The position numbers and the translations under genes are program-made. A DNA stretch of 53,970 nucleotides from a virus, in the IMG/VR virus record IMGVR_UViG_3300025108_000066, positions 1 through 53,970 of that record, one strand, 5' to 3'. The notes beneath the pieces are model-generated. The model saw only the letters and a list, made by a program, of their open reading frames with translations. It was not told where the DNA came from and searched no databases. Of this stretch, positions 9,906-53,970 are shown in pieces. Every line of letters begins with the position of its first letter. Positions within the stretch are counted from its first letter, which is position 1.

Positions 9906-12900
9906 TTACATATCATATGCTTGTATTAGTTTATCTATATCTGGACGAGACTTTTTAGTTGCAAACTTTTTAAACCTTTCAGCAGCTGGTAACTTCCAAG
10001 CATCATACATTCTATTAGCCGAGGCTTTCCAATCAGATAAATAAAACTCACTGTTTCTATGCGTTCTATTATGAGCTCTAACATCTTTTTCAATTCTTCT
10101 CATCTCAGCTCTGTCTCCTGAGATTCTTGCTTTAACGTATGCTTCAGAAAACTTAATCTTAATTGATTTAACATAGTCACCTGTTTGTTTAGTCATACGT
10201 ATAATATCGTTTTGGTAAGACGCACTAGCTGGATAGAAGTTTAATGCTCTAAAAAATATCTCTTTAAAGTGAACGTCTTTGTCTAGTACTTTACCCTGCT
10301 TGTTAGTAATAACACCATCATCATAATAAGTATATGCGTCTGCTATAGCCCTTATACCACCGTAAGGTTGTGACCTTAAGACATCTACAAATCTTGTTGT
10401 GTCAGCTTTTAAACCAACTTTACCTGCAGTGTAGTTTCCAAATAAAGTTACAGCAGCTACAGCTTGTTCTCCAGCTGCATACACAGGACCTAAGAAGTTT
10501 GTAACCTCTTGCTCAAAGCTAGAACCTGCTTTAGCCATACCAGTTAGTGGTATTAAATCACCAAAGCCTAGTCTTGTAGACATAGTAGCACCTGTAACCT
10601 TATCAAGAACACCTCTCATTACTAATGGTGATGTACCTGGGGCTACTTCGTCTATAAACATAGTTAATTCTTTTTCTACCGTACCTATTTTAATACCAAA
10701 CATTTGAACTAATGTGTCTATTAAATCCATAATGTCTTCTCCAAAAGGTAATCCTTTCATACCTGATAGGAAGAACAGTAACATTAAGAAATATATTCTT
10801 TCGTTTCTACCTAAGTTTTTCATAAGCTCAATACTAATCATTACGAATTGTTTATACATCATTAATGAATTAAGTAATGGACCTCTAGATATCTTAGGTC
10901 TGTTAAACATAGAGTACTCACCTTGAGATGTGTTTACTGCTACCTCAGCAAACTTTGCAGCTTCACCTTCAATTTCTTTATTTAACTCTGCTATTCTTTC
11001 TGGAGTTATATTTTTTACGTTAAACTCTTTTGCGTTTGCTGCTATAAGTTTTTCTTTTTGTAATCTATAAGCTGCTAGGAAAGTAGCCCTTCTGTTAAGT
11101 TGCTCTGTATAAGAGAACAACGACATCCATTTCTTAAGCATACCAGATGTGGTATTTGTTAAACCACCTCTTGCTGTACCTACCAAGGCATTGTACTGAG
11201 CCGCTTGAAGCACCCCATCAGATGTTGCTCTGTGTACAGCTTGTGCTTCATCAGGACTTATATTGTATTGTATTTGAAGTTGTTCGGCTAATTCTGGGTC
11301 AGCGGTATACTCACCTGTCTCAGGGTCAAAGCCAGCTACCTTATTCATCCAGTCTAGGTTTGCTAAACTTTGTTCAGCTCCTGCTTCTGTTAGACCTAAT
11401 CTTGTTCTTACACCATCACTCATCTGTCTAGCAGCCTTTTGCATGTGATAAGCTGACGCAGACATACCAAACCCACCGCCGTATCCAGTCTTAGGATTAT
11501 AAGTTGCAAGATACGGTATACTATGAGTAACCATAGACATTGAATTAATTATAGCTGTTGCAACAGAGCCACCTAATTGTGAAGACACAGCTAGTACTTT
11601 AAGGTTCTGTCCTGTTTTAGAATTTTCTAATATGTCTTCTGTTGAGTCTACAATGTTCTCACCACTAGCGTAGTAACCTAATATATCCTTAGCTTGTTGT
11701 TTGTAGTCTTCACCTCTACCTTCAGGTTTAACTTGTTTAGGTGTTCTTATATTAGCAAGTGGTCCTGTCATTTCATATATAGTAAATTCATCTGCAGTAT
11801 TTTCTGTAGTACCTGCACTGTATCTGTACATGTTAGCGTATGCGTCATAATTTGCTCTAGCTACTTGTTTTTCTTGTTCGTTACCAAATTTTTCTACTCT
11901 ATCTAAAGTTTCTTTTAATTTATTTAGTTTATTTCTATCGCCTAACCATTGGTCTTCACTAGCTAAGACAGTATTAAGTTTGTGTTCAAAATAAGTTTTA
12001 CCTGCTAGATGAGATTGTGCTCGTAAGAACATAGCTTGGTTTCTAACTACTTCTTTATTCCAACCAGCTTTACCAACACGAGGTAGCTTTTGTCTAGCTG
12101 CTGACCCTGTATCTGTAAGACCTTTAATAATCTTATCTCTATCATTAACAGAAATATTTATTTGTAAGTCATCAGCAATTCTTAGGAAGGCAGATAAGTT
12201 TTGGTCAAGCGACATTAAAGATGCTGTTCTAGCTACACTTCTTGATGCTTCTAAAGTAACTTCAATCTCTTGCCCTGATTTATCTCTAACAACAAATGGA
12301 TTTTTACCAAAAGTTTCATTAACTTGTTTTTGTATTTCTCTAGCATCTTGTTCAGTCTCAGCTTGAAAGTATGGCATAGCATTTTTATATTGTTGGTCAA
12401 GTTTTATTCTGTTTCTATCTTTATCAAAAGCTATTGTCTCTACTTGATACTTACCACGTCTTACAAACTGTACGTAACCTGTCATTAGAGTACGTTTAGA
12501 ATTAAACTCTATTTGTTTAGTAGCTTCTTCTAAAGCAAATAAACTTTTAATAGTATTAGTTATAGTATTAGCTTCAGCCTCTCCTTCTTTACCTTTTTTA
12601 AATATAGCGTTTAGTTCACTTAAACCCTGTATAATTCTTCTATATTCATTATCATTAGGGAATCTAAATATAGGTTGAGCCCCTGGTTCTGGTGTCTTAA
12701 ATTCATCATTCCAATCCTCGAACCTATAGTTTTCTTTTACACCTACACCTGCGTTACCATCTTGCCAGTCTTCTACTTTTAATGGTTGAAATAAAGCACG
12801 ATTAACTTCTCTTATAAACAACGCAGATTTACGTTTAGCTTCAGATGTGTAATTTGTTTGTTTATCACCAGTCGCATCTACTTGACGTATTTGCCTATAT

Positions 12901-15900
12901 TTTTCCATGATTAATTCAAACGTTTCTCTAGCTCCAGTTAAGTTTGAATCTTGACCTATAGCTTTTAAAAAGTTATTTATTGCATCTTGTCTTTCAAACG
13001 TAGTTGATTCAAGACTTGACTCAAATACATCTACGGCTGACTTATTAATGGCAGCACGTATCTCTGAATACATTTTGTAAACTCTAGGGCTAATAGATTC
13101 TGGTTTAAACTTTCTTGATTCAAGTTTACCTGTATCATCTTGTAGTATAGATATATCATATGGTATACCTTCTAAAAATTCTTCTATAGATACTAAGCCC
13201 ATGTCTCCTAATTCTTTTGCAGCTTCACGATTCACTGCTTGCCCGCCTCCAACTTCTTGTCTTAAGCTAGGTGCTTTTGCAACGGTTGAATCTTCACCAT
13301 TTTGTTTAGCCCTGAATAAGGCTGCGTAACTTAGTAAGTCGCTAACTTGATTAAGTTCTTCTTCAGTAGCACCTACAGTCCCTGGTTCAGTACCACTTTT
13401 TTTGCTGTCTATTAAATCGTTATAGTCTTTTGTAGTTGTAACAACTATATCATCTTCATATTTTCTGTTAAATATATTTGGTCTAGTAGAGAACTGAGTT
13501 AATGTTTCGTAAGTTCTTTCTAAGCTTTTTATTTTCTTAGCTTGCATACCAAAAATATTAAAGATATTTCTTAATCCTTCACTACGATTAGATATATTGC
13601 CTAATGTTTGTAGATATTCTAGTGCTGACCCAATAGCTTTTGGTGCATCTAATCCCAGTTTGTTTTTTACTACTTCCTTGAAGTTGTTAAATGAGCCGAA
13701 AGTACTGTTTGCAGTAATACCAAACATAGCAAAAATAGAAGCTGGTAAGCTGGTGTTCACCTGTTCTGTATAGAATCTAGTTTGTGTAGCTCTGTCGTAT
13801 TCATCTTGCATGTTACTTACAAGTTGTTTGACGTTAAAGTAACTACCACCACCTGTGCGTAAGTTCCTACGTGATTGACTTAGTATGTATCTTGATAAGT
13901 CATCATCAAATTTAATACCTATTTTATTTAAGAAGTTCTTTACAGCGAACCACATTCTTTGTATTGCTGATACATCTAAGGTAGCCGCTGCGTTAGCCAT
14001 AGCTTCTTCAATGGCTATGTATTTATCCATACCATTTTTTATATGTATATCTGCAACAGCTTTTATATGACCTTCGCTGTTATATAAATCTTCTAGTACT
14101 GCATTTAGTTTACCGTCAGGAACGAATGCTCGTAGCCCAAAGTGACCTAACGTCTCGTGAGCTACTATAAATTTTAGTTGCTCTTCAGTTTTAATGTTGT
14201 TAGCAAATACAACAATCTCATCTCCTAGTGCAAAGGCTGCAAAGTTTGTTGTATCAAAGTCTCCTTGTTGCCTGCCTGCAACTGCTCTTTCGTATAGCTC
14301 AGGAAACTTAGATTCTAGCTCTGCTTTATCTTTAACTACTGTAGCTTTAGGTTTTAGTTTAAGTTTACCAAGAGCTTTATTTACTATAGCTCTGACTCTA
14401 AGTATAGGCACTGGATTTTTAATAACAGAACCATCGAGTCTAAAGAACATTGTGTCATCTGGATTATCATCTACACCTTCTAACATATTATCTATATCTT
14501 TATTAGATAAGTCTTGTTTAGTTAGGAACTCCTGACCTTTTGGGTCTACTGGTTCCATTAGTTTTTCTAAATCTTTTAAGTATTTTCTTTTATAAGCTGT
14601 AGCTTCTTTCATATTACCAGCCATAAAAGTCTGCTCGATTGTTAACTCATCAGCCTCAGCTTTTGCTAAAGTTTTTACACTATAGCCTTCTGCATTATCA
14701 GCTTCTACTATTGCGTATTCAATTAGTTTTTTTTCTCCTTTCTTTAACTTATCTTTTGCAATAACCTCTGCTTCTTGGGCTTTTCTAAACGCAATCACGT
14801 CTGCCTGTTCTTTTCGTTCTTGTTCTGATAACTTACTATCTAACACTTCGTTGAGTTCTGCTACATTTTCGTTAGTGAATGCTAGTCCCTCCCCCTTTTT
14901 TAAGTTAGCTGCTTTATCTTTCTCTTCTGTTTCAATACGAGTTTTTCTTTGCTCTAAATTTTTCTTTGTTATAGGTTTAAATATAGCCATACCTTCAGCT
15001 GATTTAGTTTTATAAAGTATTAGTTTGCCTTTATCTGTAAAGTAATCGCTAAGTAAATCACCCTCTTTATTTATTCCATAGTTTTTATCTTCGTCTGACA
15101 GCTTTGCAAATCCGTTTTCTATTTTGTTCTTAGGAACACTTCTATTTGGTTGTGTTATTTTTGTAGTACCAAGGGCTTCTGTTATCTGATTCTTAATTAA
15201 ATTATGAACTTGAATAGCTGTGTAATCTGGCTGAGTATCAATAGTTATTTTACTAAGTGCACTTTGGTCAGTTTCTAATGGTTGAGCTGGACCAGAAAGG
15301 ACAGGTAATTTTTTCTTTTGTCTCTGGTCTATTATAGATTGGTATCTACCTCTTCTTTTAGTCCATGCAATAGCTTCTTGTATTCTAAGTTCTGAACCAC
15401 TTTGTATACCAGGTAAACCTGTAGCCTCTCCTACTTCAACTAGTTCAGTTGTAAGTCTATCGTATATTACATCGTCTAATACAGCTGCTTCGTTATCAGT
15501 ATAAAATCCAGTTGTTCCAAAATAATTATTTAAAAAGTTACGGGCTTTTGTAACTGCTCTTTCGTTAAACGTAATATCTCCATAGTCTTTACTTCGTTTA
15601 TCTAACCACCCTATATCTACTAACTCAGATAGTAAATCTTGTTTAGTGTCGTTATCTAAAATAGCTGCTTCGTACTGTGCTATACGCATGTCAGTATATA
15701 CAGCTGGAGTTACACCTACATCTTTAAAATCTTGCTCAGTCATATGTAAAAACATATTTCTAATTTCTTCTGTTTTTATTGCTGTGCTTTCTTTTACTGC
15801 TGTACTTATAGAATCACTTATTGGTTTAGGTACAGTATCAATAAGAGCAGAACCAGGTATCAACGGTTTTATATCGTCCCAAGCTTCTTGTGTATTTTTA

Positions 15901-18900
15901 TATTTTTTCTTAAAGTCTTTTGGTTTTGCTCTGGCTCTAGTTAACTTATCTACTTTTTGTTGACGTAAAAATTTATCAACCGCACTTACTTTATCTTGCC
16001 CCGTGCTATCGGCTGGTTTCTCAACAGGTTTTTCGTCAGCTTTCCGAACGGATTTTTCTTTTCCCTTAACTTGTAGTTTAGCCTTTCCTTTCTTCTTTTC
16101 TCCGACAGACTCTTTAGTCCCTTTGATGTTGGTAGTGTCAGCATCTGTTTCTTGCTTGTCTCTTGTAGTAGTTGTTCTGCTATCTCTGGTTTGTTTTCCT
16201 TCAACCACTTCAGCTGTTTCTTGCTTCGTATTGGCATCTTGTGTATCTCCTTCTATTTGAAATTGTGTCATAGCTTTTCTAGCATCATCGCCAAACGATA
16301 CTATTAAACCACCAGCATCTTGTACAAATCTTTCGTGTTGTTCTTTCGTACCTTCAAGCTGTACAAAGTTAACTCCGCCAGAAGGCATAGGTGTAAATGA
16401 TTCTCTAAGTTCTGCGTTAGCTATTTCAGCTTGAACATCTCTGTTATTAAAACTTTCACTTAATTGGTAAAGAATTTTACCGCCTACAATTTCACCGCCT
16501 ACAATTTCACTAGGTGTTGTTTCTGTCTCTTGATTGTCTTTAAATAAGTTTGTCTCTAAAGGAGAATAAAATTCATCTCCCTTTTTAGCAACTTTAAATC
16601 CTCTTCTCTTAAATGCTTTTTGTGCTCCAGCTACACTTTCAAGTACAGTATATCTTTTTCCTTGTGATTCTCTTATTTTTTCTATTTCTTTAAATATTTT
16701 TTCAACAGCTTTTGAATTTACACCACCTACCATCTCTACACTAATAGCATTATCTTCAATACTATATTGTGCTGCTGCTAGTGGAATACCTTTATCGTCT
16801 TCTATTACAATACTATCATTTGGAACAGCTCCTGTTTTAAATGCATCTAAAACAATAGGTGCCATCATACGTAAAGTAGCAGATAGTTTATCTTGTGTTT
16901 GTACATCTCCTCTTATTACAACTGACGCACTAGAAGTTTTGTTGCTTGGTTTTAAATACTCTAAAGATATAGCTCCTTCTATTGCTGATTGCATTACCCC
17001 TGATGGCATATTTTGAGCAGTTATACCTGAAAAAATATTTCCTGGTCCTTGTGCCATAGAATTTATAGTTTCATTTACATTATTTACAAACACAGAATTT
17101 AAAGATTTAGCTACAATAAATGGTCCCGCATAATCTTCTACTTTAATTTTTTTAGCTTCTTGTTCTGCTCTAGCTCTATCTAAAATTTTTTGTTGTTGAG
17201 CTCTTAATGCATTTATCTCTGTTGTATCTTCTGCTACTTCCTCACCTGCTTCTGTCCCTCGTTTTTCTACTCCTGTTCCTGTTGTTGCTACCAGTAAACT
17301 TAAGTACCTTTGTATTGCTTCGATATCAGCTACTACATTTCTATACTGTGCAGTGTTTATCTTACCGTCTTTCTCTAACTTAACTTTTGTTTGTATTTTT
17401 TTAGCTAATAATTTAGATAGTTCTTCTGTATTTGTTCTACCTGTTAAACCTTGGTCCATAGCTAGATAGCTGGCTATATTACGTCTTTTACCTTTATCTT
17501 TTGCACTAGATTTAAGTTCATATCTAGATAAAGCTGTTCTATCAAGAGTTGATATTTCTTCTAGCATAGTATTTAATTTATCTGCTGAAGTTAATTTTGC
17601 TTTACCTTTAGGTGTTGTAGTTGTAGTTGTTGCTTTTTTTAAATCTTGCTCAACATTTTTTATTTCTTTTTTAGTATTATTTTTAAGTATGTTAGCTATT
17701 GTTTCCTCTTCTTTTTTTCTATTCTGTTGTCGTATTTCTTTAATTTCAAAATACAAATCATCGCTAGTAATACCTATTTCTGTAGCGTTAGGACCACTAG
17801 GAAAAGCTGGAGAGTAAGAATTAAACTTAGCATCTGACATGGTAAGAAGTGAAGGATTCTGCAGAACAGTTTTAGTAGCATCTTCTGTTTTAGTAGTAGC
17901 TACTTCTTTATCTAATTTATTTAATAAATTAGTATTTTCTTTTTCTAAATCTTTAGTGTCTGATATAACTGCAATAGGAAAATCTCTAGTGCCTTTCTCT
18001 TTTAGTGTTTTCTTTCCCTCTTCTTCTACTATCTTAGTAGTTTCTTTTTCTAATTCTTTAGTGTCTTCACTATAAGCAGAAGCTGGTAGTTTCATTTGCT
18101 GACGTAACAGTGCATCCCTTCGTTCTTTTGCTCCAGTTATTTTTTCTTCACGACTTGGTTGTTCGTCTGTAAAATCTATTGGGTCATTAGGCTCAGTTCT
18201 AGAATTACTACGGTCTAATACATCTGAGCTAGGTTTAGAAAGTAAGTTAGCTGCAGCACCAATAGGACCACCAACAAAGAAACCTGCTGCAAACGAATTG
18301 ACTAATCTATTTTGTACTTGAGGGCTATCTAACTTTAACTGACCTGTGTTAGCTAGTATTAAACTTTCTTGTGCTACCTCTGTTGTACCTTCTAATGTAC
18401 CACCAACACCAAAACCTTTTAGAACTCTTGATGTTCGTCCACCTTGGTCAGTTCCTTCTAATAATGTTTTATTTATTTTCTTTGGCTTAACACTAAATAT
18501 TCTTGCAGCTAATAAAAACTCAGGTAGCATTTCCATTGCAGCATAAGGTATTGCAGTAAGAGCAGCAGACAGTCTATCGTCTTGACCCTCTTCTCTTTGT
18601 TCACCATATATATCACCAAGACCTATACCATAACTACTAGTTCCAATACCTAATGCTGTACCACCTTTTATAGCTTGGTCTCTAGCTGTTTGTGTAATTC
18701 GTCCTCGTACACCATCTCCTCCTAATAGTCCTTCTTTAGCTACAAGCTCATCAAGTTGAGTTTTAGTTGGTTTGCCTCTAAGTGTTTTAGCAACTCCTTT
18801 ACTATCAACAATAAATATATTAGGTGTTTTTATACTAGCAACACCAGCTAAACTTGATGCTTCACGAATTAATTTTCGCTCACCACCAGTAAGTGATTTT

Positions 18901-19718
18901 TTATCTTTTTCGTATTTCTTAGCTGCTTTTATTACAGCTTGTTTATAACGCTCTTTACCTAAAACACCAGATACTGCATAGCCTACAGCACTAAGCGGAT
19001 TTGCACCTGTTACTGCTCCTACGCCTCCACCTATCAGGGCAGCTGCTATGGATTCTAATAAGTTTGGACCTTGTTGTGCTAGGTTAGCTACGAACCAATC
19101 TATAGCATCATGCGATTCGTTTGCATCTCCGTCTTGTATGTAACCAGATTTTATCTTAGTAAATTCTCTTTGGAACGGCTCGTTCTTTTCTATCTCTCTG
19201 ATAGCTTCATCAACAAGACCTTGCCCATATTTTTCAGCTCCAAAGAATTGAGAGGCTCTACCATATAATAGTTTTAGATTACTACCACCTATGTCAAAGT
19301 TTTCTGCAGCTAGTCTTCCTGCTTGTGGATTTTTAATTCCTTTAATGTATGAACCAAATTCTTTAGGACCAACTCGTGTCCAGTCTCTTGCTATATCTAA
19401 AGAAGGTTTTAGTGGTCTGTCTCTAAGTTTTGCTACAGATTGTAATGCTGTCTTAGCGTCATCATCGTCAAACATCAAGCCGTTGACAAACATTTTTTTA
19501 GTGCTTGGGCTATAGAAAACTTGGGGAGTTTCATCAGGTGGCTCATAGCCAATAGCATCAGTTTGTGCTTGTAGACCTGCAAGAGTATTTAAATTACTTT
19601 GTGCTAACTCACCAGTGCTGGGTACATTGTCTATACTTTGAGAAACACTTTCGATACTTGGTATACTATCAGCAACACTCTCAATACTAGGGGTGTTTAA
19701 ACCTACACGTACTACCAT
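9906..19718 (-). CDS. Giant polyvalent/ejection protein with acetyltransferase-like and zincin-like domains
   Basis: 3,270 residues, 18% of the genome. It occupies the T7 gp16 / N4 virion-RNA-polymerase position at the end of the internal-protein operon, so it is probably packaged and ejected into the host. The N-terminal third has short hydrophobic Gly/Ala segments (near 220-260 and 470) and Thr- and Lys-rich linkers. Residues about 930-1050 look like a GNAT acetyltransferase domain. At 1854-1859 lies HETLGH, an HExxGH-type zincin motif seen in phage polyvalent proteins. The C-terminal region (about 2,550-3,050) resembles polyvalent-protein regions and has a strongly hydrophobic helix near 2,970. 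No T7-type RNA polymerase motif was recognised. AGAGG precedes the ATG. Confidence 0.85.
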   Translation of the reverse strand: MVVRVGLNTPSIESVADSIPSIESVSQSIDNVPSTGELAQSNLNTLAGLQAQTDAIGYEPPDETPQVFYSPSTKKMFVNGLMFDDDDAKTALQSVAKLRDRPLKPSLDIARDWTRVGPKEFGSYIKGIKNPQAGRLAAENFDIGGSNLKLLYGRASQFFGAEKYGQGLVDEAIREIEKNEPFQREFTKIKSGYIQDGDANESHDAIDWFVANLAQQGPNLLESIAAALIGGGVGAVTGANPLSAVGYAVSGVLGKERYKQAVIKAAKKYEKDKKSLTGGERKLIREASSLAGVASIKTPNIFIVDSKGVAKTLRGKPTKTQLDELVAKEGLLGGDGVRGRITQTARDQAIKGGTALGIGTSSYGIGLGDIYGEQREEGQDDRLSAALTAIPYAAMEMLPEFLLAARIFSVKPKKINKTLLEGTDQGGRTSRVLKGFGVGGTLEGTTEVAQESLILANTGQLKLDSPQVQNRLVNSFAAGFFVGGPIGAAANLLSKPSSDVLDRSNSRTEPNDPIDFTDEQPSREEKITGAKERRDALLRQQMKLPASAYSEDTKELEKETTKIVEEEGKKTLKEKGTRDFPIAVISDTKDLEKENTNLLNKLDKEVATTKTEDATKTVLQNPSLLTMSDAKFNSYSPAFPSGPNATEIGITSDDLYFEIKEIRQQNRKKEEETIANILKNNTKKEIKNVEQDLKKATTTTTTPKGKAKLTSADKLNTMLEEISTLDRTALSRYELKSSAKDKGKRRNIASYLAMDQGLTGRTNTEELSKLLAKKIQTKVKLEKDGKINTAQYRNVVADIEAIQRYLSLLVATTGTGVEKRGTEAGEEVAEDTTEINALRAQQQKILDRARAEQEAKKIKVEDYAGPFIVAKSLNSVFVNNVNETINSMAQGPGNIFSGITAQNMPSGVMQSAIEGAISLEYLKPSNKTSSASVVIRGDVQTQDKLSATLRMMAPIVLDAFKTGAVPNDSIVIEDDKGIPLAAAQYSIEDNAISVEMVGGVNSKAVEKIFKEIEKIRESQGKRYTVLESVAGAQKAFKRRGFKVAKKGDEFYSPLETNLFKDNQETETTPSEIVGGEIVGGKILYQLSESFNNRDVQAEIANAELRESFTPMPSGGVNFVQLEGTKEQHERFVQDAGGLIVSFGDDARKAMTQFQIEGDTQDANTKQETAEVVEGKQTRDSRTTTTRDKQETDADTTNIKGTKESVGEKKKGKAKLQVKGKEKSVRKADEKPVEKPADSTGQDKVSAVDKFLRQQKVDKLTRARAKPKDFKKKYKNTQEAWDDIKPLIPGSALIDTVPKPISDSISTAVKESTAIKTEEIRNMFLHMTEQDFKDVGVTPAVYTDMRIAQYEAAILDNDTKQDLLSELVDIGWLDKRSKDYGDITFNERAVTKARNFLNNYFGTTGFYTDNEAAVLDDVIYDRLTTELVEVGEATGLPGIQSGSELRIQEAIAWTKRRGRYQSIIDQRQKKKLPVLSGPAQPLETDQSALSKITIDTQPDYTAIQVHNLIKNQITEALGTTKITQPNRSVPKNKIENGFAKLSDEDKNYGINKEGDLLSDYFTDKGKLILYKTKSAEGMAIFKPITKKNLEQRKTRIETEEKDKAANLKKGEGLAFTNENVAELNEVLDSKLSEQERKEQADVIAFRKAQEAEVIAKDKLKKGEKKLIEYAIVEADNAEGYSVKTLAKAEADELTIEQTFMAGNMKEATAYKRKYLKDLEKLMEPVDPKGQEFLTKQDLSNKDIDNMLEGVDDNPDDTMFFRLDGSVIKNPVPILRVRAIVNKALGKLKLKPKATVVKDKAELESKFPELYERAVAGRQQGDFDTTNFAAFALGDEIVVFANNIKTEEQLKFIVAHETLGHFGLRAFVPDGKLNAVLEDLYNSEGHIKAVADIHIKNGMDKYIAIEEAMANAAATLDVSAIQRMWFAVKNFLNKIGIKFDDDLSRYILSQSRRNLRTGGGSYFNVKQLVSNMQDEYDRATQTRFYTEQVNTSLPASIFAMFGITANSTFGSFNNFKEVVKNKLGLDAPKAIGSALEYLQTLGNISNRSEGLRNIFNIFGMQAKKIKSLERTYETLTQFSTRPNIFNRKYEDDIVVTTTKDYNDLIDSKKSGTEPGTVGATEEELNQVSDLLSYAALFRAKQNGEDSTVAKAPSLRQEVGGGQAVNREAAKELGDMGLVSIEEFLEGIPYDISILQDDTGKLESRKFKPESISPRVYKMYSEIRAAINKSAVDVFESSLESTTFERQDAINNFLKAIGQDSNLTGARETFELIMEKYRQIRQVDATGDKQTNYTSEAKRKSALFIREVNRALFQPLKVEDWQDGNAGVGVKENYRFEDWNDEFKTPEPGAQPIFRFPNDNEYRRIIQGLSELNAIFKKGKEGEAEANTITNTIKSLFALEEATKQIEFNSKRTLMTGYVQFVRRGKYQVETIAFDKDRNRIKLDQQYKNAMPYFQAETEQDAREIQKQVNETFGKNPFVVRDKSGQEIEVTLEASRSVARTASLMSLDQNLSAFLRIADDLQINISVNDRDKIIKGLTDTGSAARQKLPRVGKAGWNKEVVRNQAMFLRAQSHLAGKTYFEHKLNTVLASEDQWLGDRNKLNKLKETLDRVEKFGNEQEKQVARANYDAYANMYRYSAGTTENTADEFTIYEMTGPLANIRTPKQVKPEGRGEDYKQQAKDILGYYASGENIVDSTEDILENSKTGQNLKVLAVSSQLGGSVATAIINSMSMVTHSIPYLATYNPKTGYGGGFGMSASAYHMQKAARQMSDGVRTRLGLTEAGAEQSLANLDWMNKVAGFDPETGEYTADPELAEQLQIQYNISPDEAQAVHRATSDGVLQAAQYNALVGTARGGLTNTTSGMLKKWMSLFSYTEQLNRRATFLAAYRLQKEKLIAANAKEFNVKNITPERIAELNKEIEGEAAKFAEVAVNTSQGEYSMFNRPKISRGPLLNSLMMYKQFVMISIELMKNLGRNERIYFLMLLFFLSGMKGLPFGEDIMDLIDTLVQMFGIKIGTVEKELTMFIDEVAPGTSPLVMRGVLDKVTGATMSTRLGFGDLIPLTGMAKAGSSFEQEVTNFLGPVYAAGEQAVAAVTLFGNYTAGKVGLKADTTRFVDVLRSQPYGGIRAIADAYTYYDDGVITNKQGKVLDKDVHFKEIFFRALNFYPASASYQNDIIRMTKQTGDYVKSIKIKFSEAYVKARISGDRAEMRRIEKDVRAHNRTHRNSEFYLSDWKASANRMYDAWKLPAAERFKKFATKKSRPDIDKLIQAYDM

Positions 19719-30800: not shown

Positions 30801-31721
30801 TTATCCCTCTAATGTTGTTACTCTAGATTGTAAGTCTTCTATTACTGCTTGTTGTTCTTGTATTGTTTTGACCAATAAAGGTACAAGTTTGCTTTGGTCG
30901 ATTCCTTGCATTTGTTCAGCATCTTTAGTTCCTATTATAGCTTCAGGTACTATGCTTGATACTTCGTGTGCAATAAATCCATCTAATTCTGTGTTTGTAT
31001 CATCTGCTATCCAATTAAATCTGCATGGTTTGAGTTGCTTTAATCTTGCTGTTGCATCAAATGTATAATCTACATTTTCTTTTAGTCTATAATCAGATGA
31101 AGTGCTATATGTGGTTGATGAGCCACTTACTGTAACTGCTCCTGCACTTGTCGAATCACTTGAATAAAATCTTATAGCATCATTATTTGCATAACATCTT
31201 ATTTCCATACCATTTTGATTTGTAGCATCTGATTTTATACATACAAAAGAATTATTTCTTTCAACAGTTGTGCCAATATAAACCTGTCCAACACCATTAA
31301 CTTTCATTCTATCAGAGCCACCTGTTTTGAAATCTATTTCATCATCTGTGTCAGCAGTAATACTAGTATCACCATCAGCATCTAATACTAACTCAGCACC
31401 ATTGAGGTCTCGAGCCTCTGCTTGTATATCTTCAAAAAGTTTAGCTACAGGTCTAAGCTCAAACCTATCACCTGTACTAAATGCTCTAGCTGAAGTATTA
31501 TCTTGTGCTCTGACTACAGTTAAAGAGTCAGTAGACCTAGCTGTAACCTTAACAATCTCAAGATTGTTTGAAGTATCTATAAGGGTTCCATAAAAATAGT
31601 TACCAGTAGTTAGAGTAGGAAATCTAGCTCCTTCACCAGAAGCTAATGCAACAGTTGTAGCAGAGTCATTTATACCTGATGCTAATGTACTAAATCCGTT
31701 ATTTGTAATTTTAACTGTCAT
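30801..31721 (-). CDS. Tail fibre/tailspike with C-terminal S74 chaperone (second copy)
   Basis: 306 residues. The N-terminal domain (about 1-110, ASGINDSATTVALASG) attaches to or assembles on the tail. A beta-rich middle follows, then an intramolecular chaperone of peptidase family S74, with the autocleavage Ser-Lys pair five residues apart in SDYRLK. The C-terminal end is a coiled coil that would be released. It is paralogous to the gene just upstream at 31,733-33,139 and shorter in the middle, so the receptor-binding part differs. Confidence 0.85.
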   Translation of the reverse strand: MTVKITNNGFSTLASGINDSATTVALASGEGARFPTLTTGNYFYGTLIDTSNNLEIVKVTARSTDSLTVVRAQDNTSARAFSTGDRFELRPVAKLFEDIQAEARDLNGAELVLDADGDTSITADTDDEIDFKTGGSDRMKVNGVGQVYIGTTVERNNSFVCIKSDATNQNGMEIRCYANNDAIRFYSSDSTSAGAVTVSGSSTTYSTSSDYRLKENVDYTFDATARLKQLKPCRFNWIADDTNTELDGFIAHEVSSIVPEAIIGTKDAEQMQGIDQSKLVPLLVKTIQEQQAVIEDLQSRVTTLEG

Positions 31722-31732
31722 AATCTATTAAT

Positions 31733-33139
31733 TTATCCTTCTAGTGCTGTAATTCTTGCTTCTAATTCTTGTATTGTTTTAACTAATAGTGGAACAAGTT
31801 TTGCTTGGTCTATTTGTTGCATAACAGGTATATCACTCATACTTGCAGACCATGTAGTATCATTTGCATAATTTCCATCTGCTTTATCTTTTGTCCATTC
31901 TGCTTCTGTTACACCCTCTGAATTGAAAGTTCCATCGGCATTTTTAACAACATTGGTTGCTGTTCTTGTAGCATCTTTAGTTCCTATTATAGCTTCAGGT
32001 ACTATGCTTGATACTTCATGTGCAATAAATCCATCTACTGTTTTATCTGCATCTACAATAAAATTAAATCTTGCAGGTTTTAATTGTTTTAATCTTGTTG
32101 TTGCATCAAATGTATAATCTACATTTTCTTTTAATCTATAATCTGATGATGTTGCATAAGTTGTGCTTGATGCTGATGTCGATATACTACCACCACTAGC
32201 CCCATCTTTATGAAAGACAACGACAATACCATCACTTGATAATCTATTTATAACTATAGGTTCCATACCATCTGCAATAAATTCAGCAGCACCTGCTTTT
32301 GTGCCTAAATCGTTAAAACAAATACCTGCAGTTCCAAAGTTATTAGTATTTTTATTAAATAATATTTCACCTGAACTATTAATTCTCATTCTTTCTGTAT
32401 TGCTTGATGTTGTAGCACTACTGCCTTTAGTGAATATAAGAGCATTATCTGAGTTTATGTAAGTATGCTCAAATGTGCTTGTATCGTTGGTTACTCTAGG
32501 AACACCTCTTATCCATAAACCTGCTTGTGTACCTGATGAGCCAGAGCCATGCATTTTTACATTCACTCCACTAGCAGTTGTTATATCGGTTGTAGTGATA
32601 GACATTCTATCTGTGCCACCTGTTTTAAAATCTATTTGGTCATCGGTATCTGCCGTAATTGAAGTGTCTGCATCAGCATCGAGTATCAATTCTGCTCCGT
32701 TTAAATCTAAAGCTCCCCCAAAAGAGGGTGCTGTAATATTTCCTGAAGATTGAATAGTACCTGTAATATTAATATTACCTGTACCTGTAATATCATTTGA
32801 GTTTAATCCTAGGTCTGACCCTAGTGCAGATATTTGAGTTGAAACATCTAATAAAGATTGTGCAGTAATTCTAAGTTCTATTCTATCACCAACAGCAAAT
32901 GCTCTAGCTGAAGTGCTTTCTTGTGCACGAGTAACAGTTAATACATCAGATGACCGTGCAGTACATTTAGCAATCTCTAAATTATTTGATGCGTCTATAA
33001 GAGTTACAAAAAAATACTCACTGCCTGTTAAAGATGGGAATAAAGCTCCGTCCCCAGATGCTACAGTTATACTAGTAACAGAGTCATTTATACCTGAAGC
33101 TAGTGTAGATACTGCGTTATTCGCAAATTTTACTGGCAT
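31733..33139 (-). CDS. Tail fibre/tailspike with C-terminal S74 chaperone (first copy)
   Basis: 468 residues, with the same N-terminal domain and S74 end as its downstream paralogue but a longer middle and an insertion near residue 400. The S74 motif is SDYRLKENV; cleavage before this Ser after trimerisation is the known behaviour of the family. The shared parts include DADADTSITADTDDQIDFKTGG. The two adjacent fibre genes could give alternative receptor binding. Confidence 0.86.
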   Translation of the reverse strand: MPVKFANNAVSTLASGINDSVTSITVASGDGALFPSLTGSEYFFVTLIDASNNLEIAKCTARSSDVLTVTRAQESTSARAFAVGDRIELRITAQSLLDVSTQISALGSDLGLNSNDITGTGNINITGTIQSSGNITAPSFGGALDLNGAELILDADADTSITADTDDQIDFKTGGTDRMSITTTDITTASGVNVKMHGSGSSGTQAGLWIRGVPRVTNDTSTFEHTYINSDNALIFTKGSSATTSSNTERMRINSSGEILFNKNTNNFGTAGICFNDLGTKAGAAEFIADGMEPIVINRLSSDGIVVVFHKDGASGGSISTSASSTTYATSSDYRLKENVDYTFDATTRLKQLKPARFNFIVDADKTVDGFIAHEVSSIVPEAIIGTKDATRTATNVVKNADGTFNSEGVTEAEWTKDKADGNYANDTTWSASMSDIPVMQQIDQAKLVPLLVKTIQELEARITALEG

Positions 33140-44450: not shown

Positions 44451-44491
44451 GAGCAGAAATTATTTTTAGATGTGTCAGGGTTTAATCATGG
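44451..44491 (+). promoter_or_regulatory. Bipartite motif, copy A
   Basis: GAGCAGAAA, 11 bases, then TGTGTCA (44,451-44,477), continuing GGGTTT...CATGG. The following start codon is 58 bases downstream. Exact spacing is kept in three copies, and copies A and B share the extended CATGG end. It may be a promoter or operator for the rightward unit; orientation and the recognising protein are not known. Confidence 0.6.
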
Positions 44492-44535
44492 AAAGCACAA
44501 GCTGACCAAGAACGAAAATCATAGGAGTAAAAACT

Positions 44536-44949
44536 ATGGAAGAAAATAAAAAAGACAACATAGTCTTATCTGAAAACAGAGTAAGGTTATACGTTGGCTT
44601 AAAAGGTGGAGCTCAACATGTTTTGAGAGTTACCGACAGCGAACAGTACGAGGACAGGTATAATTGGTACCTACCTACTGAAGCTAAAAAACTATTAGCC
44701 CATGTTATGAAAATAACAGCTAAAGGCTCAAAAGTAATGGTTGGCTACAAAGGCAAACCAATATCAGCCGAAGGCATGGTATTCGATAGCATCTACACAG
44801 ATGAAGTCGAGAAAAACAAAGGTGAGCTATATATTGGCTACTTCATGATAGGGACTCGAAAACGAGGTCTTCAAATCAGAAGAGCTTCTAATGGAACTGA
44901 AGGGGAGTTTAACCCTAGAGGGTCTACTAGAGATATAGACATAGTATAA
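44536..44949 (+). CDS. Hypothetical protein, 137 aa, first rightward unit
   Basis: First gene after motif copy A, with the ribosome site ATAGGAG before its ATG. It has a mixed sequence with GLKGGAQHVLRVTDSEQY near the start and several Tyr/Gly-rich beta segments (GELYIGYFMIG). No named family is recognised. The early position beside a conserved control motif makes a host-takeover or regulatory role possible, but this is inference. Confidence 0.75.
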   Translation: MEENKKDNIVLSENRVRLYVGLKGGAQHVLRVTDSEQYEDRYNWYLPTEAKKLLAHVMKITAKGSKVMVGYKGKPISAEGMVFDSIYTDEVEKNKGELYIGYFMIGTRKRGLQIRRASNGTEGEFNPRGSTRDIDIV

Positions 44950-44958
44950 CAACCAAGT

Positions 44959-44980
44959 CCTCCTCCCGAAAGGGAGGGGG
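44959..44980 (+). other. GC-rich hairpin with GAAA tetraloop before a small gene
   Basis: A nine-pair stem (one G-U pair) closes on a GAAA tetraloop and is followed immediately by CAGGAG, the ribosome site of the 49-residue gene. It could be a transcript-stabilising or translation-control element rather than a terminator, because no T run follows. Confidence 0.6.
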
Positions 44981-44991
44981 CAGGAGTAAAA

Positions 44992-45141
44992 ATGAGTGTA
45001 TATAAACATATTAAAGTACATTACTTTGATAGAAACCAACCTAAAGTGAGAACATTTGATAATGCATTAGAAGCTAACTTGTTTATCAAGTTCCCACCAC
45101 AAGACATAAGAATAGTTAGCTGGATTCCACTATCTAACTAA
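44992..45141 (+). CDS. Hypothetical protein, 49 aa
   Basis: Starts after CAGGAG. The sequence includes YKHIKVHYFDRNQPK and TFDNALEANLFIKF, suggesting a small folded protein with beta and helix segments. It is the last gene of the first rightward unit, followed after 20 bases by a strong terminator. No family is recognised. Confidence 0.65.
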   Translation: MSVYKHIKVHYFDRNQPKVRTFDNALEANLFIKFPPQDIRIVSWIPLSN

Positions 45142-45161
45142 CTAGCCTACCTACCTACCTA

Positions 45162-45193
45162 CCCTCACTCAATCGAGTGGGGGTTTCTTTTTG
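45162..45193 (+). terminator. Rho-independent terminator of the first rightward unit
   Basis: A nine-pair stem (CCCTCACTC with GAGTGGGGG, one G-U), loop AATC, followed by TTTCTTTTT. It ends the transcript led by motif copy A. Four CCTA repeats precede it. Confidence 0.88.
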
Positions 45194-45196
45194 TCT

Positions 45197-45218
45197 ATCA
45201 AATCGTTTACGATTTGAT
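45197..45218. terminator. Second hairpin, possibly bidirectional terminator
   Basis: A perfect nine-pair stem ATCAAATCG/CGATTTGAT with a TTTA loop directly follows the T run of the first terminator. It may back up termination or protect the start of the structured stretch to its right. Confidence 0.6.
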
Positions 45219-45270
45219 TATATCATAACTTTACATAGATATCACTAACTTTACATACACATAGATATAT

Positions 45271-45304
45271 AATCAATAGGTTCTAGTAATCAATAGGTTC
45301 TAGA
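45271..45304. repeat. 17-bp direct tandem repeat
   Basis: AATCAATAGGTTCTAG occurs at 45,271-45,286 and again at 45,288-45,303, one base apart. The core CAATAGGTT recurs at 46,972-46,980, and GTTCTAGTAAT (45,280-45,290) recurs inverted at 46,949-46,959 in the second gene-free stretch, which links the two regions. Confidence 0.85.
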
Positions 45305-45502
45305 ATGTCGGAAGGTTAAAGTAGTATATATATATAAACCATTGGTCGGTAGGTTATGGCACGTATAATGCAACTATATAGACTATCTAGTTGTAACTTT
45401 ACGCAACTTTACATGTTCTAGATAGTAAAACCTTACACATGTAACCTTACATTCCCTTAGTTTACGCCATATATAGGGCATTATGCTATCCATAACTATC
45501 TA

Positions 45503-45620
45503 AACTATCTAGACTATCTAGTTATTTTAATATAATGCGTCACTAAGCGTTTACATCTAGCAATATACTAAATTTCGCAGCGATACATTACCCATAAAAA
45601 ACTAGATAAACTAGATAGTT
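45503..45620. repeat. 21-bp inverted repeat with CTAG-rich arms
   Basis: The arms are 45,503-45,523 (two CTATCTAG copies in a row) and 45,600-45,620, inverted with two mismatches, separated by 76 bases. Each arm contains direct repeats of its own, so several alternative pairings or protein sites are possible. Confidence 0.8.
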
Positions 45621-45710
45621 AATGCCAACTTGTTGATATATATAAAGTTTTACTATCTAGTTACACACCCATTAAGATAACTTTACATAGATAGTTATAT
45701 ACACAATGCC

Positions 45711-45751
45711 GAGCAGAAAAAAATTTTCGATGTGTCAAGGTTTTGGCATGG
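45711..45751 (+). promoter_or_regulatory. Bipartite motif, copy B
   Basis: GAGCAGAAA, 11 bases, TGTGTCA (45,711-45,737), then AGGTTTTGGCATGG. It shares GCC before and CATGG after with other copies. The next start codon is 76 bases downstream. The flanking ATGCC/GGCAT could close a hairpin around the whole motif in this copy. Confidence 0.6.
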
Positions 45752-45813
45752 CGAGGGATTTCCCCTTGTTATATATAATATTAACTATCGCCCTATGGGG
45801 CAGGATATAAACT

Positions 45814-46191
45814 ATGAACGACAATGTAAAAGAGTATGTAAGGTGGAAACCTATAATCAAAAAAGGGAATGCTACTAAAGGCATTAATGCTGGCGACTTG
45901 CACATTAAAGTTGTTGAGTGTGATAAAAAACACCCTAAAGCAATGTGTACTGACAATGTTATGGCTATTGTAACTAAAGGTCTTAACGCTATTGGTAAAC
46001 TTGTTGGTGGCAAAGAGATACTAGCTATGGACTTCTCTGACAGAGAGAAAGAGAGACACATTGAGGATAAGCATAAAGTGTGGTCTATCCAACGCTCTGG
46101 AAAGTGGGGTAAAGAGTTGTATTTATCCTTTACTGTACCATCAAGTAACAGTAATGCACTTGATGATGAGTTTGATATAGATAATCTATAA
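45814..46191 (+). CDS. Hypothetical protein, 125 aa, second rightward unit
   Basis: First gene after motif copy B, with CAGGAT before its ATG and a small GCCC/GGGC hairpin just upstream. The N-terminal half includes MVARWK-like basic segments (VRWKPIIKKGNATKG), and the middle DFSDREKERHIEDKHKVW. The C-terminal end is acidic (DDEFDIDNL). No family is recognised; an early regulatory or host-interaction role is possible. Confidence 0.72.
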   Translation: MNDNVKEYVRWKPIIKKGNATKGINAGDLHIKVVECDKKHPKAMCTDNVMAIVTKGLNAIGKLVGGKEILAMDFSDREKERHIEDKHKVWSIQRSGKWGKELYLSFTVPSSNSNALDDEFDIDNL

Positions 46192-46212
46192 TCATCTTAC
46201 AACAACTTGTGG

Positions 46213-46237
46213 TATCCCTAGTGATGTACTAGGGATA
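46213..46237 (+). other. Intergenic hairpin, possible weak terminator
   Basis: A perfect ten-pair stem TATCCCTAGT/ACTAGGGATA with a GATGT loop separates the 125-residue gene from the small zinc-ribbon gene. Only TTT follows, so partial termination or message processing is more likely than a full stop. Confidence 0.65.
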
Positions 46238-46258
46238 TCCTTTATGAGAGGTATAAAT

Positions 46259-46459
46259 ATGGCTAGATGTAGAGACTGTAATGTTATTATACAACAAGGT
46301 AGAGTATCACTAGGCTACGATACATGCCTAGTTTGTGGTGAGGTTGAGGCACGTAAGGTTAAGCATACTGTGGTGCCATTGCATAAGTCTAACTACATAG
46401 TAGTGAGCAATAAAGAGGACTTGAAAGGAATTAATAACAAAGGTGGTAAACATGACTGA
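46259..46459 (+). CDS. Small zinc-ribbon protein, 66 aa
   Basis: Starts at ATG 46,259 with GAGAGG upstream; an in-frame ATG at 46,244 is inside the ribosome-site region and less likely. Cys4-x2-Cys7 and Cys23-x2-Cys26 make a compact zinc ribbon. The rest is basic and ends GGKHD. Such short ribbons are common in phage early regions and may bind nucleic acid or a host protein. Its stop overlaps the next ATG by eight bases. Confidence 0.75.
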   Translation: MARCRDCNVIIQQGRVSLGYDTCLVCGEVEARKVKHTVVPLHKSNYIVVSNKEDLKGINNKGGKHD

Positions 46460-46667
46460 TGATATACAAGAGGTTACTGTACACATAGCAGTAATACAAA
46501 ATGGTACTGTGCATATGTATTGGAACACTAGATTCTATGTACATGATAGTGAGGGCGTATTAGATAAGGCATTAGAGTTTGTCAAAAGGCAAGGACACAA
46601 TCAAGAACAATGCAGTTGGGCAATAGTAGGTAGCCTTATTGAAAGGCATAATGAATATATGGGTTAA
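46452..46667 (+). CDS. Hypothetical protein, 71 aa
   Basis: The ATG at 46,452 has AAAGGTGG upstream; the GTG at 46,443 is less likely. The sequence has a beta start (EVTVHIAVIQNGTVHMYW) and helical rest (LDKALEFVKRQG). No family is recognised. It is the last gene before the second gene-free stretch, whose first stem begins at its stop codon. Confidence 0.68.
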   Translation: MTDDIQEVTVHIAVIQNGTVHMYWNTRFYVHDSEGVLDKALEFVKRQGHNQEQCSWAIVGSLIERHNEYMG

Positions 46668-47028
46668 CTTGTGATTATGAGACACAAGTGTGGGGTAGGT
46701 AGTGGCAAAGTAGGGTATAATAAATATACGGATTTAATTCCAAAATCCCACGCCTACCTACCTCTAATGAATATTTCTCAATGAGTAATTAGTACTCAAG
46801 CTTATTGGGAGCATAGATGTAAGCTAGCGTATACATCTATGTAGGGTAGATAGCTAGATGGTTGGTGATTCTTAGTCCATGAAAGCCAACATAAAGACTA
46901 CCAAGATGACTATGTATGGAGCAAAACTAGTCTATCTATCCTTAATGAATTACTAGAACGAAATCACCTAGCAATAGGTTGGAGATAGGTAACGCTGTAT
47001 CGTTCCAGCATGTAGGTTACTTATCTCT
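46667..47028 (+). ncRNA. Candidate large structured RNA
   Basis: No open frame is convincing, but the whole stretch can be read as a chain of helices. These are: ACTTGTG/CACAAGT (46,667-46,689); GGTAGGTAG/CTACCTACC (46,694-46,762) enclosing two adjoining hairpins (46,715-46,729 and 46,730-46,748); a bulged 12-pair helix (46,776-46,810); CATAGATGT/ACATCTATG (46,812-46,841); a 15-pair stem with two single bulges (46,843-46,943); ACCTA-GCAA-TAGGT with a GNRA loop (46,966-46,979); and a 13-pair plus 4-pair stem (46,981-47,028). G-U pairs occur in several helices, which favours RNA over a DNA site. The strand is inferred from neighbours. Confidence 0.6.
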
Positions 47029-47040
47029 AAGGACTATGCC

Positions 47041-47067
47041 GAGCAGAAATTTTTTTCGGTTGTGTCA
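47041..47067 (+). promoter_or_regulatory. Bipartite motif, copy C
   Basis: GAGCAGAAA, 11 bases, TGTGTCA, preceded by GCC. The start of the MoxR gene lies 59 bases further on, after a short CCCAC/GTGGG hairpin and an ATAGGAG ribosome site nearly the same as that after copy A. It leads the long accessory operon. Confidence 0.6.
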
Positions 47068-47126
47068 AAATCAAACAAGAATTTCCCACAATGTCGTGGG
47101 GATATAACAACACATAGGAGAAAACT

Positions 47127-48116
47127 ATGAGAGCGAAACTACTTATGCAAACCCTAAAGGACTTGTTTAAGATAAAGAGGACAGTAGCTATCGAGGGTAG
47201 CCCTGGGGGTGGTAAGACTACCATATGCCAACAGGTTGCCAAAGAGCTAGGTGTCGGATACGAAGAAGTGCATATGCCAACCATGTTGGTAGAGGACTTC
47301 GGTATTCCTATACCTCAGCCTGATGGCTCACTTAAATATTCCATACCACATTGGATACCCGTAGTGGGTAGCGACCACCCTGATACAGGTATATTGGTAC
47401 TTGATGACATGAATCAAGCTAGTGCTGACTTACAGAAAGTGGTAGCTAACATGTGTCAAGCAAGGAATGTACATGGCTATCAAATCAAAGAGGGGTGGCA
47501 GATTGTATCAACAGGTAACAAGGTGTCGGACAGAGCTGGTGCTAATCGTGTATTGTCTCACTTACGTAACAGGCATACTGTGTATGACTTAGAGACACAC
47601 GTTGATGATTGGTATGCATGGGCTATTGAACACAATGTAAAGCCTGAAGTCATCTCATTCATCAAGTTCAGAACGGACTTGTTGCATGACTTTGACCCAC
47701 AAAGAGAGTCTAACCCTACACCACGTTCATGGGTAGAGGGTGTGTCTAATGCAATAGGTGTCGTATCACCTGAGGCAGAGTATGAGACATTCAAAGGTGC
47801 TGTCGGTGAGGGTGCTAGTGCAGAGTTCACAGGGTTTGTGAAGATATATCGTAACCTACCTGATATGGAACAGGTCATTAAGAAACCACTTGAGGCTACT
47901 GTGCCTACTGACCCAGCTACATTGTATGCAATGTCTGGCAGTCTAGCTACGTACTCAACAGTGGATAACTTCAAGAATGTACTGACATATCTAGACAGGA
48001 TACCCCCTGAGTTTTCAGTACTGTCGGTATCGTATGCAGTCAAGAAGAATGTCGAGCTGATGAACACACCTGAGTTCACTAAGTGGGCAGTCGATAAGCA
48101 GAATGTAATTATATAA
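47127..48116 (+). CDS. MoxR-type AAA+ ATPase
   Basis: 329 residues. Walker A is GSPGGGKT (24-31) and Walker B ILVLDD (89-94). Sensor 1 is in VSTGN near residue 130, followed by NRVLSHLRNR with the arginine-finger region. This is the MoxR/AAA_5 branch, whose members act as chaperone-like remodelers with VWA-domain partners. The third gene in the same operon is a VWA protein, supporting a working pair. The target could be a phage or host complex; it is not visible in sequence. Confidence 0.9.
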   Translation: MRAKLLMQTLKDLFKIKRTVAIEGSPGGGKTTICQQVAKELGVGYEEVHMPTMLVEDFGIPIPQPDGSLKYSIPHWIPVVGSDHPDTGILVLDDMNQASADLQKVVANMCQARNVHGYQIKEGWQIVSTGNKVSDRAGANRVLSHLRNRHTVYDLETHVDDWYAWAIEHNVKPEVISFIKFRTDLLHDFDPQRESNPTPRSWVEGVSNAIGVVSPEAEYETFKGAVGEGASAEFTGFVKIYRNLPDMEQVIKKPLEATVPTDPATLYAMSGSLATYSTVDNFKNVLTYLDRIPPEFSVLSVSYAVKKNVELMNTPEFTKWAVDKQNVII

Positions 48117-53819: not shown

Positions 53820-53970
53820 ATGTTAATACAAGTAAATAGATACATAAAAACCACTTACGAATTAAATAAAATTCCCGAAGATGGGTTTGAAAATTGGTCT
53901 GATGATGAGATAGCTGGTCATTTTGAAGAGCATGGTCTTGCAGTAAAAACAGACAGAGGATATTGTGGCT
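53820..53970 (+). CDS. N-terminal part of the junction-spanning small protein
   Basis: An AGGAGG site precedes the ATG. This is the start of the 61-residue protein completed at 134 after the redundancy. This copy codes Glu where the left copy codes Lys (GF[E/K]NW). The run of small genes thus continues directly into the DNA polymerase, linking accessory and replication modules on one strand. Confidence 0.75.
   Translation, partial: MLIQVNRYIKTTYELNKIPEDGFENWSDDEIAGHFEEHGLAVKTDRGYCG
53872..53970. repeat. Right copy of the 99-bp terminal redundancy
   Basis: This repeats bases 1-99 with two differences, one silent (CCC/CCT) and one changing Glu to Lys. It shows that the linear record covers a full genome and suggests either real strain variation in the sampled population or a sequencing error at these two bases. 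Confidence 0.9.

Follow-up and report, generated by a model that had tools for sequence, protein, structure and literature searches.

When a phage sets the same two-part sequence in front of three of its genes, should we see in it a promoter, the landing site of a protein of the phage's own making, or merely the tendency of repeated DNA to stay alike? The question is raised by IMG/VR virus record IMGVR_UViG_3300025108_000066, of which positions 1 to 53,970 (hereafter 'the window', 53,970 nucleotides in all) carry the exact sequence GAGCAGAAA-N11-TGTGTCA three times on the plus strand: at 44451-44477 (copy A), 45711-45737 (copy B) and 47041-47067 (copy C). Behind them, on the same strand, lie gene A (44536..44949, 137 amino acids, the first rightward gene), gene B (45814..46191, 125 amino acids) and a gene for an AAA-type ATPase (phrog_1297, 47127..48116). 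Our answer is that the three copies are probably early promoters for a host sigma-70-type RNA polymerase, each with a lineage-specific -35 box, and that the predicted promoters of this phage group evolve in concert, copies being alike within a genome and unlike those of close relatives.

Three copies and their replacements in close relatives

A sequence-only reading of the window had placed the three copies at these positions with an 11-base gap, 58-76 bases upstream of genes, and all of this was recovered: the distances from motif end to next ATG are 58 (A), 76 (B) and 59 (C) bases, and the whole window holds no further match on either strand at up to three mismatches. A search of the window's own record returned the same three copies, and none of the reversed control motif. 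The shared downstream GGTTT...CATGG of copies A and B is likewise real, as GGTTT-NNN-CATGG. The view that the intervening bases vary while their number is fixed needs qualifying, for although both variation and spacing are seen, the interval is biased (largely A/T, then a (C/A)G(A/G) step) and the exact 11-base spacing is confined to the window phage and its near-identical relatives.

Might these simply be chance repeats of an AT-rich genome? Shuffled windows yield a mean of 0.62 matches at up to three mismatches, and at least three in 4 of 100 shuffles, which gives the idea some footing; exact matches, however, are expected from base composition only about 2.6e-5 times, whereas three exact 16-base matches occur, all at gene starts, and the duplicated counterparts found in relatives refute chance, leaving it a practically negligible probability.

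An exact scan of IMG/VR matched 30 stretches, of which all but L003, L007, L013 and L016 were set aside because their sequence context looked unrelated. The motif is present in the near-identical contigs L007, L013, L016 and L003/L034 (99.8-99.9% identical), a retention that is weak evidence, since these contigs hardly diverge from the window. Searches with the ATPase returned genomes at 86-88% identity over its full length, alongside near-identical ones and two partial matches (90% and 81%). Here the expectation that close relatives would keep the motif at the same places failed: it is missing where the ATPase is 86-88% identical, and a different element, itself duplicated, stands there instead, so that the comparison shows the element to be exchangeable rather than absent. 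If the window's form is called T1, a second class (T2) is a TCGGTTTTGCGATTCGGCTGAGCCGTGCGAAACTG-like sequence found upstream of the ATPase in L036, L037 and L038 and repeated upstream of gene B in L038 and L052, and a third (T4) consists of aaaCTTTCCA-N17-TARRNT-like elements at both the B and C sites of L055, L056, L058 and L060. The ATPase itself is 86-88% identical in the T2 and T4 relatives compared. A looser pair, CAAGCAAAAATTTTT-N3-TRTGA-GATAGT/GAATAT, occupies sites A and B of L102 (class T6; terminase 88% identical), its box lying three bases nearer the -10 than the window's.

Where both sites could be assigned, the classes at B and C agree in seven of eight genomes (L080, L084, L088, L096, L089, L097 and L100); the eighth, L099, counted here by hand, disagrees. 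It is the same contig as L035, whose B site is T4 and whose C site, AACGAGAAAAAATTTTTTTCGTGTGGCAAAAT, is T1-like, while L100, whose gene A is the same, carries T4 there. For classes other than T1, T2 and T4, no same-class element was seen at C. In L055 and L058 an inverted repeat of CCCTC-GAGGG type immediately precedes the -35 region in the B and C copies (weaker at L058 B), a possible binding site.

Predicted promoters at the homologous sites

The wider sample came from a terminase search that found 91 relatives and returned 80, 57 of them with an early region of 1500 bases or more; the list of sites was drawn from 33 loci. L151 and L157 were dropped because no shared element was seen in their A and B windows, and others, for example L116, L117, L123, L124, L138 and L155, were untabulated as fragments, near-duplicates or differently arranged. 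The resulting site table holds 64 sites (53 distinct) from 29 of the 33 loci, leaving out L099, L115, L149 and L154, and tests on 28 genomes omit L083 (no B site) and the near-duplicates L149, L115, L085 and L099. These 28 genomes are mutually related, several of them close kin, and counts over them are not independent. In the usual arrangement gene A is followed by one to three small genes, a non-coding stretch of some 500-700 bases, gene B, further small genes and the ATPase.

Across the 28 representative genomes we scanned the region 30-150 bases upstream of each gene for TTGACA (at most one mismatch), exactly 17 bases and xAxxxT, a search independent of any chosen register. For gene A, 18 of the 28 genomes carry the pattern, and for gene B likewise 18 of 28, where 1.4 and 1.3 were expected and 300 simulations reached at most 6 (A) and 5 (B). 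Other spacers from 13 to 20 gave 0-4 genomes at A; at B, spacer 18 gave 13 and the rest 1-4. The scan misses both sites in L080 (T1), in L084, L088, L093 and L096 (T2), in L102 (T6) and in L154 (T8), as well as site B in three T4 genomes and site A in L134, L135 and L140. Among the tabulated promoters, whose registers were set by eye and alignment so that the figures are descriptive, the spacer is 17 in 48 of 53 distinct sites and TG occupies -15/-14 in 36 of 53 (0 of 9 T5 and 0 of 6 T10 elements). TTGACA is found in every tabulated T5 and T10 site and in the A sites of T4 and T9, and the end of the -10 lies 45-86 bases before the start codon in all 63 sites with a distance, the window's three among them.

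Into this frame the window copies were fitted by alignment to relatives. Copy B aligns with a T5 promoter, including the -10 and the bases that follow (TTGACAGAAAAAATTTTTTCG, a three-base gap and TGCAAGGTTT, against CGAGCAGAAAAAAATTTTCGATGTGTCAAGGTTT), and CAAGGTTT together with a GAGGGA-TTCCCC leader is found both at copy B and behind the TTGACA-N17 promoter of L101 (T5). In the relatives' register TGTG falls at -17 to -14, CA starts the -10 hexamer and GAGCAGAAA lies at about -37 to -29. Copy A then spans 44451..44481 (box 44451-44459; TRTG-like TGTG 44471-44474; -10-like CAGGGT 44476-44481), ending 54 bases before gene A; copy B spans 45711..45741 (box 45711-45719; TGTG 45731-45734; CAAGGT 45736-45741), 72 bases before gene B; and copy C spans 47041..47071 (box 47041-47049; TGTG 47061-47064; CAAAAT 47066-47071), 55 bases before the ATPase gene. 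In all three, TGn precedes a hexamer whose second base is A and whose sixth is T, the form of an extended -10: TGTGT-CAGGGT, TGTGT-CAAGGT and TGTGT-CAAAAT. The earlier suggestion of a promoter or protein-binding element thus survives in part: relatives have sigma-70-like promoters at the homologous places, and the copies align with them in position, leader and -10 hexamer, but the exact motif itself is missing there.

We therefore picture three promoters that would drive rightward transcription of gene A, of gene B and of the ATPase operon, with TGTG acting as the extended -10 (TRTG), CA opening a CARRNT hexamer, and GAGCAGAAA taking the place where many group members have TTGACA. As GAGCAGAAA is a poor match to TTGACA, recognition would rest on the extended -10, and the conserved box would allow a further contact peculiar to the lineage. 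Counted in favour of this reading is that the plus strand of the window holds no TTGACA between 44 and 54 kb. That extended -10 promoters can do without a good -35 is established, and the TRTG form has been described for Gram-positive promoters (both in the available part of PMC2613000). The window copies resemble the galP1-type extended -10 (TGn/TRTGn) as presented there: TG stands two bases ahead of a weak -10, a good -35 is lacking and other upstream contacts would be relied upon (PMC2613000). They differ from it in that their -35 region is a conserved nine-base box, present in three promoters and exchanged between relatives. AsiA is treated in the same source (PMC2613000).

A parallel in principle comes from phage T4. 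There, at middle promoters, a MotA box used with AsiA replaces the -35 element while sigma-70 keeps the -10. The idea of a phage-specific box in place of the -35, with the sigma-70 -10 retained, would be the same; the sequence and position of the box differ, and no MotA or AsiA homologue was found among the window proteins scanned.

Several observations weigh against reading the copies as sigma-70 promoters. A consensus promoter scan of the window misses the three sites, and the TTGACA-N17 search overlooks the T1 genome itself, as it does T2, T6 and T8 at both sites. No TTGACA-like hexamer lies about 17 bp from the -10 in the T1 copies, which offer GCAGAA at 17 bp or CGAGCA at 20 bp; the former is a poor -35 and the latter needs a spacer of 20, not 17. 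The CARRNT-type hexamers are weak, copy C fits the T5 alignment worse than copy B, and, the register having been chosen with relatives in view, the hexamers' A (position 2) and T (position 6) are in part a product of that choice. Kinship among the 28 genomes means that the scan's expectation understates chance agreement, and T1 is known only from contigs that are about 99.8% identical, beside which L102 and L035-C offer looser forms.

Could the element act instead as RNA, as a nut- or put-like antitermination site or an RNase III site just 3' of some other promoter? It does lie in the 5' region of each unit, the T2 RNA could fold (by eye), and lambdoid nut sites likewise differ in matched fashion between relatives. 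The same place, however, holds -35/-10 promoters in many relatives, and at the scan threshold used no sigma-70-like promoter lies just upstream of the window copies, so that we regard this as very unlikely. Searches for RNA families at 43-54 kb and for transfer RNAs over the whole window returned none.

A low-copy, sequence-specific element that evolves in concert might also be the promoter of a phage-encoded RNA polymerase or sigma factor. The virion RNA polymerase of N4 recognises a hairpin promoter with a conserved stem of 5-7 bp and a three-base loop; short inverted repeats occur in T2 and in several B spacers, the inverted repeats in T1 have 4-5 pairs (p 0.02-0.25 each), and the structural module includes an open reading frame of 3270 amino acids. 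Set against this, many relatives have plain TTGACA-N17 at the same places, the giant frame showed no T7-type RNA polymerase motifs in a simple pattern search, and an N4-like polymerase there was rejected, being unsupported by Pfam, PHROGs or motif patterns. The earlier statement that no phage RNA polymerase is recognisable holds for the proteins scanned: no RNA polymerase or sigma family appears in 34 of the 57 listed open reading frames by PHROGs or in 15 by Pfam, the 23 outside the PHROGs scan being mostly small or structural. Phages 7-11 and phiEco32 offer a related case, in that low-copy intergenic motifs emerged from comparing the intergenic regions of one phage; unlike the window, in whose scanned frames none was found, they encode a sigma factor (available text of PMC4331800). 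A dedicated phage polymerase or sigma factor seems to us a highly improbable source of the pattern.

Exchange of the predicted promoters and the gene associated with it

Replacement of the element is seen at the C sites of L035 and L036, where a cassette of 57 versus 84 bases has been exchanged between identical flanks (88 bases upstream and 51 leader bases downstream) ahead of ATPases 99.1% identical; farther upstream of the 88-base flank the two diverge (70% and less). Likeness between sites was measured as the best 28-base match between the site windows of one genome, set against all other-class comparisons (L099 lay outside this test, and T1 and T10 were never compared with each other). 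The likeness of A to B within a genome beats every comparison across classes in 13 of 22 genomes. That of B to C does so in 7 of 20, exactly the one T1, three T2 and three T4 genomes, and that of A to C in T1 only. Within a genome the A site differs from B in T2, T4, T9 and T10.

Must there be a partner that reads the box? Recombination or gene conversion between copies, aided by duplication of genes A and B, could keep promoters alike if any working promoter suffices, and we hold this to be quite possible, though not the outcome we would expect. Genes A and B are visibly paralogous in several relatives, the C cassette was exchanged between identical flanks, and A sites may differ from B and C within one genome, all as such a process would have it. 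What it leaves wanting is a selective reason for the B and C copies of T2 and T4 to keep the bases of the -35 region and the -10 beside differing leaders and downstream genes, and for the non-TTGACA promoters (T1, T6, and T2 at B and C) to keep their departure in every tabulated copy.

An alternative that refines the host-polymerase reading is that gene A, or a linked product, encodes a regulator specific to these promoters, be it an activator, a sigma appropriator or an autorepressor, which would recognise the -35-region box at B and C, box and factor switching together. No genome in the table has, at site B, an element of one class together with the gene A of another, whereas gene B is freely combined, and where the two genes point to different kin the element sides with gene A. 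L089, which has T4 elements with a T2-type gene B, is 0.80-0.85 identical to four T2 phages in gene B, 0.23-0.26 in gene A and 0.48-0.55 in the element. T5 phages share elements and gene A across two unrelated gene B types: in the six pairs of L101, L109 and L113 with L103 and L112, identities are 0.73-0.85 for gene A, 0.27-0.33 for gene B and 0.83-0.93 for the element. L089 and L097 give 0.48, 0.21 and 0.86 in the same order, and L102, with a T5-type gene B (0.52-0.56) and its own gene A, has an element only 0.62-0.69 like T5. A partial Mantel correlation of element with gene A, given gene B and terminase, is 0.315 (p 0.001), and B and C agree in class in all but one of the genomes noted above.

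Other observations count against such a partner. Gene B and the terminase keep partial correlations of their own (0.169, p 0.003, and 0.257, p 0.001), so that gene A is the best single correlate, with shared descent and linkage contributing. The class at site B follows gene A, about 1 kb away, better than the adjoining gene B, but hitch-hiking over so short a distance can account for the association. Among 24 pairs that exceed 0.40 in gene A but stay under it in gene B, the element is not shared in 17 (0.52-0.66), all 17 having gene A at 0.40-0.53; L137 and L144 all but match in genes A and B yet have different B spacers; and L099/L035 combines T4 at B with a T1-like C. The window's gene A would, moreover, need its own product to start its own promoter. 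Since gene A follows a T1 copy, with no consensus promoter detected immediately before it, the promoters, were gene A a regulator, must have some activity independent of it, which favours autoregulation over strict activation.

Nor does gene A look like a DNA-binding protein: family, PDB and Foldseek searches gave no such family or fold. The window's genes A and B are without PHROG or Pfam match, and over the gene A/B proteins no Pfam family and no convincing PHROG emerged (one member of 15, E 0.027); the PDB sequence search found nothing below E 0.3. A model of gene A from L121 (alignment A5), with a predicted local distance difference test (pLDDT) score of 66, is predicted with modest confidence to fold as beta-beta-alpha-beta-beta and drew nothing below E 0.4 from Foldseek, and the model of the window's gene A (A6; pLDDT 50) is too low for use. 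In L119-L159 and others, genes A and B encode paralogous small proteins whose short C-terminal tails are often acidic or hydrophobic. On balance a cognate factor of this kind is possible but doubtful. The stronger claim, that the gene A family would be a new promoter-specificity factor, one gene A for each box carried by the two or three early promoters of a lineage, we put forward only tentatively and think unlikely; under it, whole box sets would switch between phages whose neighbouring genes are 85-99% identical.

Two other candidates were considered. Spacer dyads, compared with shuffles for complementary pairs, average 4.13 versus 2.91 at B (23 distinct), 3.28 versus 2.94 at A (25) and 4.0 versus 2.8 at C (5); as repressor operators they were not built upon, the sites being non-independent and the spacers of L137 and L144 differing beside near-same genes. 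A frame of 94 amino acids at 6640-6924, with a weak PHROG match to a transcriptional repressor (E 0.0095), was ruled out as a class-specific reader, being 88-94% identical in a T4 and a T2 genome. There is some kinship of pattern with the stoperators and immunity repressors of cluster A mycobacteriophages, where a repeated site differs between subclusters together with its regulator (available text of PMC6550527). Stoperators number up to about 30 per genome, whereas the window's group has two or three promoter-located copies and a candidate partner, gene A, without DNA-binding signature.

The phage, its early region and what promoter exchange may mean

Around the promoters lie further structures. 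Gene A is followed by gene A2 (44992..45141, plus strand, 49 amino acids), at whose place L052 (T2) and L035/L055/L058 (T4) have small proteins that are mutually alike by eye, and its unit may end in a terminator-like hairpin (45161..45184, plus), no more than suggestive since a scan of the window found 3 terminator-like sites against 2.9 expected. Just 3' of copy B is a short leader hairpin, GGGATTTCCCC (45755..45765, plus), and several relatives have hairpins at a similar place (by eye). The leader hairpin 3' of copy C (CCCAC-N6-GTGGG, 47085..47100, plus) keeps all five pairs in 7 of 7 aligned leaders, with covariation no better than shuffles (216 of 500). Upstream of copy B, 45200-45700 is a non-coding stretch of about 500 bases in which ACTATCTA units recur and long inverted repeats occur (45503-45544 with 45579-45620); it is partly kept in T2 and T4 relatives (blastn pieces 73-75% identical), and is a candidate replication origin. 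Upstream of copy C, 46690-47035, like L036 1-1000, holds repeated long hairpins ending in CTATCTATCCTTAATGAATT, with no Rfam match, and the hairpin just before copy C has an inner stem that differs pairwise between relatives (GCTG..CAGC, GCAG..CTGC; by eye).

Among phage records the portal protein has 36 matches, the best 20 listed being 25-36% identical and including Rhizobium phages RHph_TM (36%), roseophages CRP, pelagiphages HTVC and HMO-2011 (26%); on this basis the window is classed, by its portal sequence, as a podophage distantly related to HMO-2011. HMO-2011-type phages are defined by a DNA polymerase with two CXXCXGXG motifs (available text of PMC9038755). The window's polymerase of 621 amino acids (136-2001) has no CXXC at all, which makes it a distant relative and not a member of the type by that rule; its group may be a separate lineage. 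Rightward genes encode DNA polymerase, helicase, exonuclease, a DUF927 primase/helicase, the AAA ATPase, a DUF2201 protein and an HslV-like peptidase, and leftward genes encode terminase, tail-fibre and virion proteins. The 3270-amino-acid frame (9906-19718, minus) is 22-57% identical in pieces in two relatives, against 75-96% for most early genes there, and its PHROG matches, of function unknown, are confined to the C-terminal part. At 30801-33139 (minus) two adjoining tail-fibre-like genes share stretches of DNA 73-77% identical, an apparent duplication. A single 99-base stretch of L039 aligns to both ends of the window (1-99 and 53872-53970), so the record is probably a near-complete genome closed by end overlap, although the window has no exact terminal repeat. 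A megablast of 43.0-54.0 kb against the phage collection returned nothing, and a host search of genome contigs found only three contigs of metagenome-assembled genomes, at 38-43% identity.

HMO-2011-type phages are described as among the most abundant in marine viromes (available text of PMC6918029), and by term search the word 'promoter' is missing from the main text of two papers on them (PMC6918029, PMC9038755). For another phage, four sigma-70 promoters are predicted in the available part of a pelagiphage paper (PMC10504331), and a search of open-access literature for promoter motifs or concerted evolution in such phages gave nothing on the element among the matches listed. The present survey supplies predicted early promoters for 29 related phage genomes or fragments, together with a natural exchange of such promoters whose boundaries are exactly defined and a single candidate for the partner gene. 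Were box and gene A truly matched, this would be a novel means by which lytic-looking phages maintain private control circuits.

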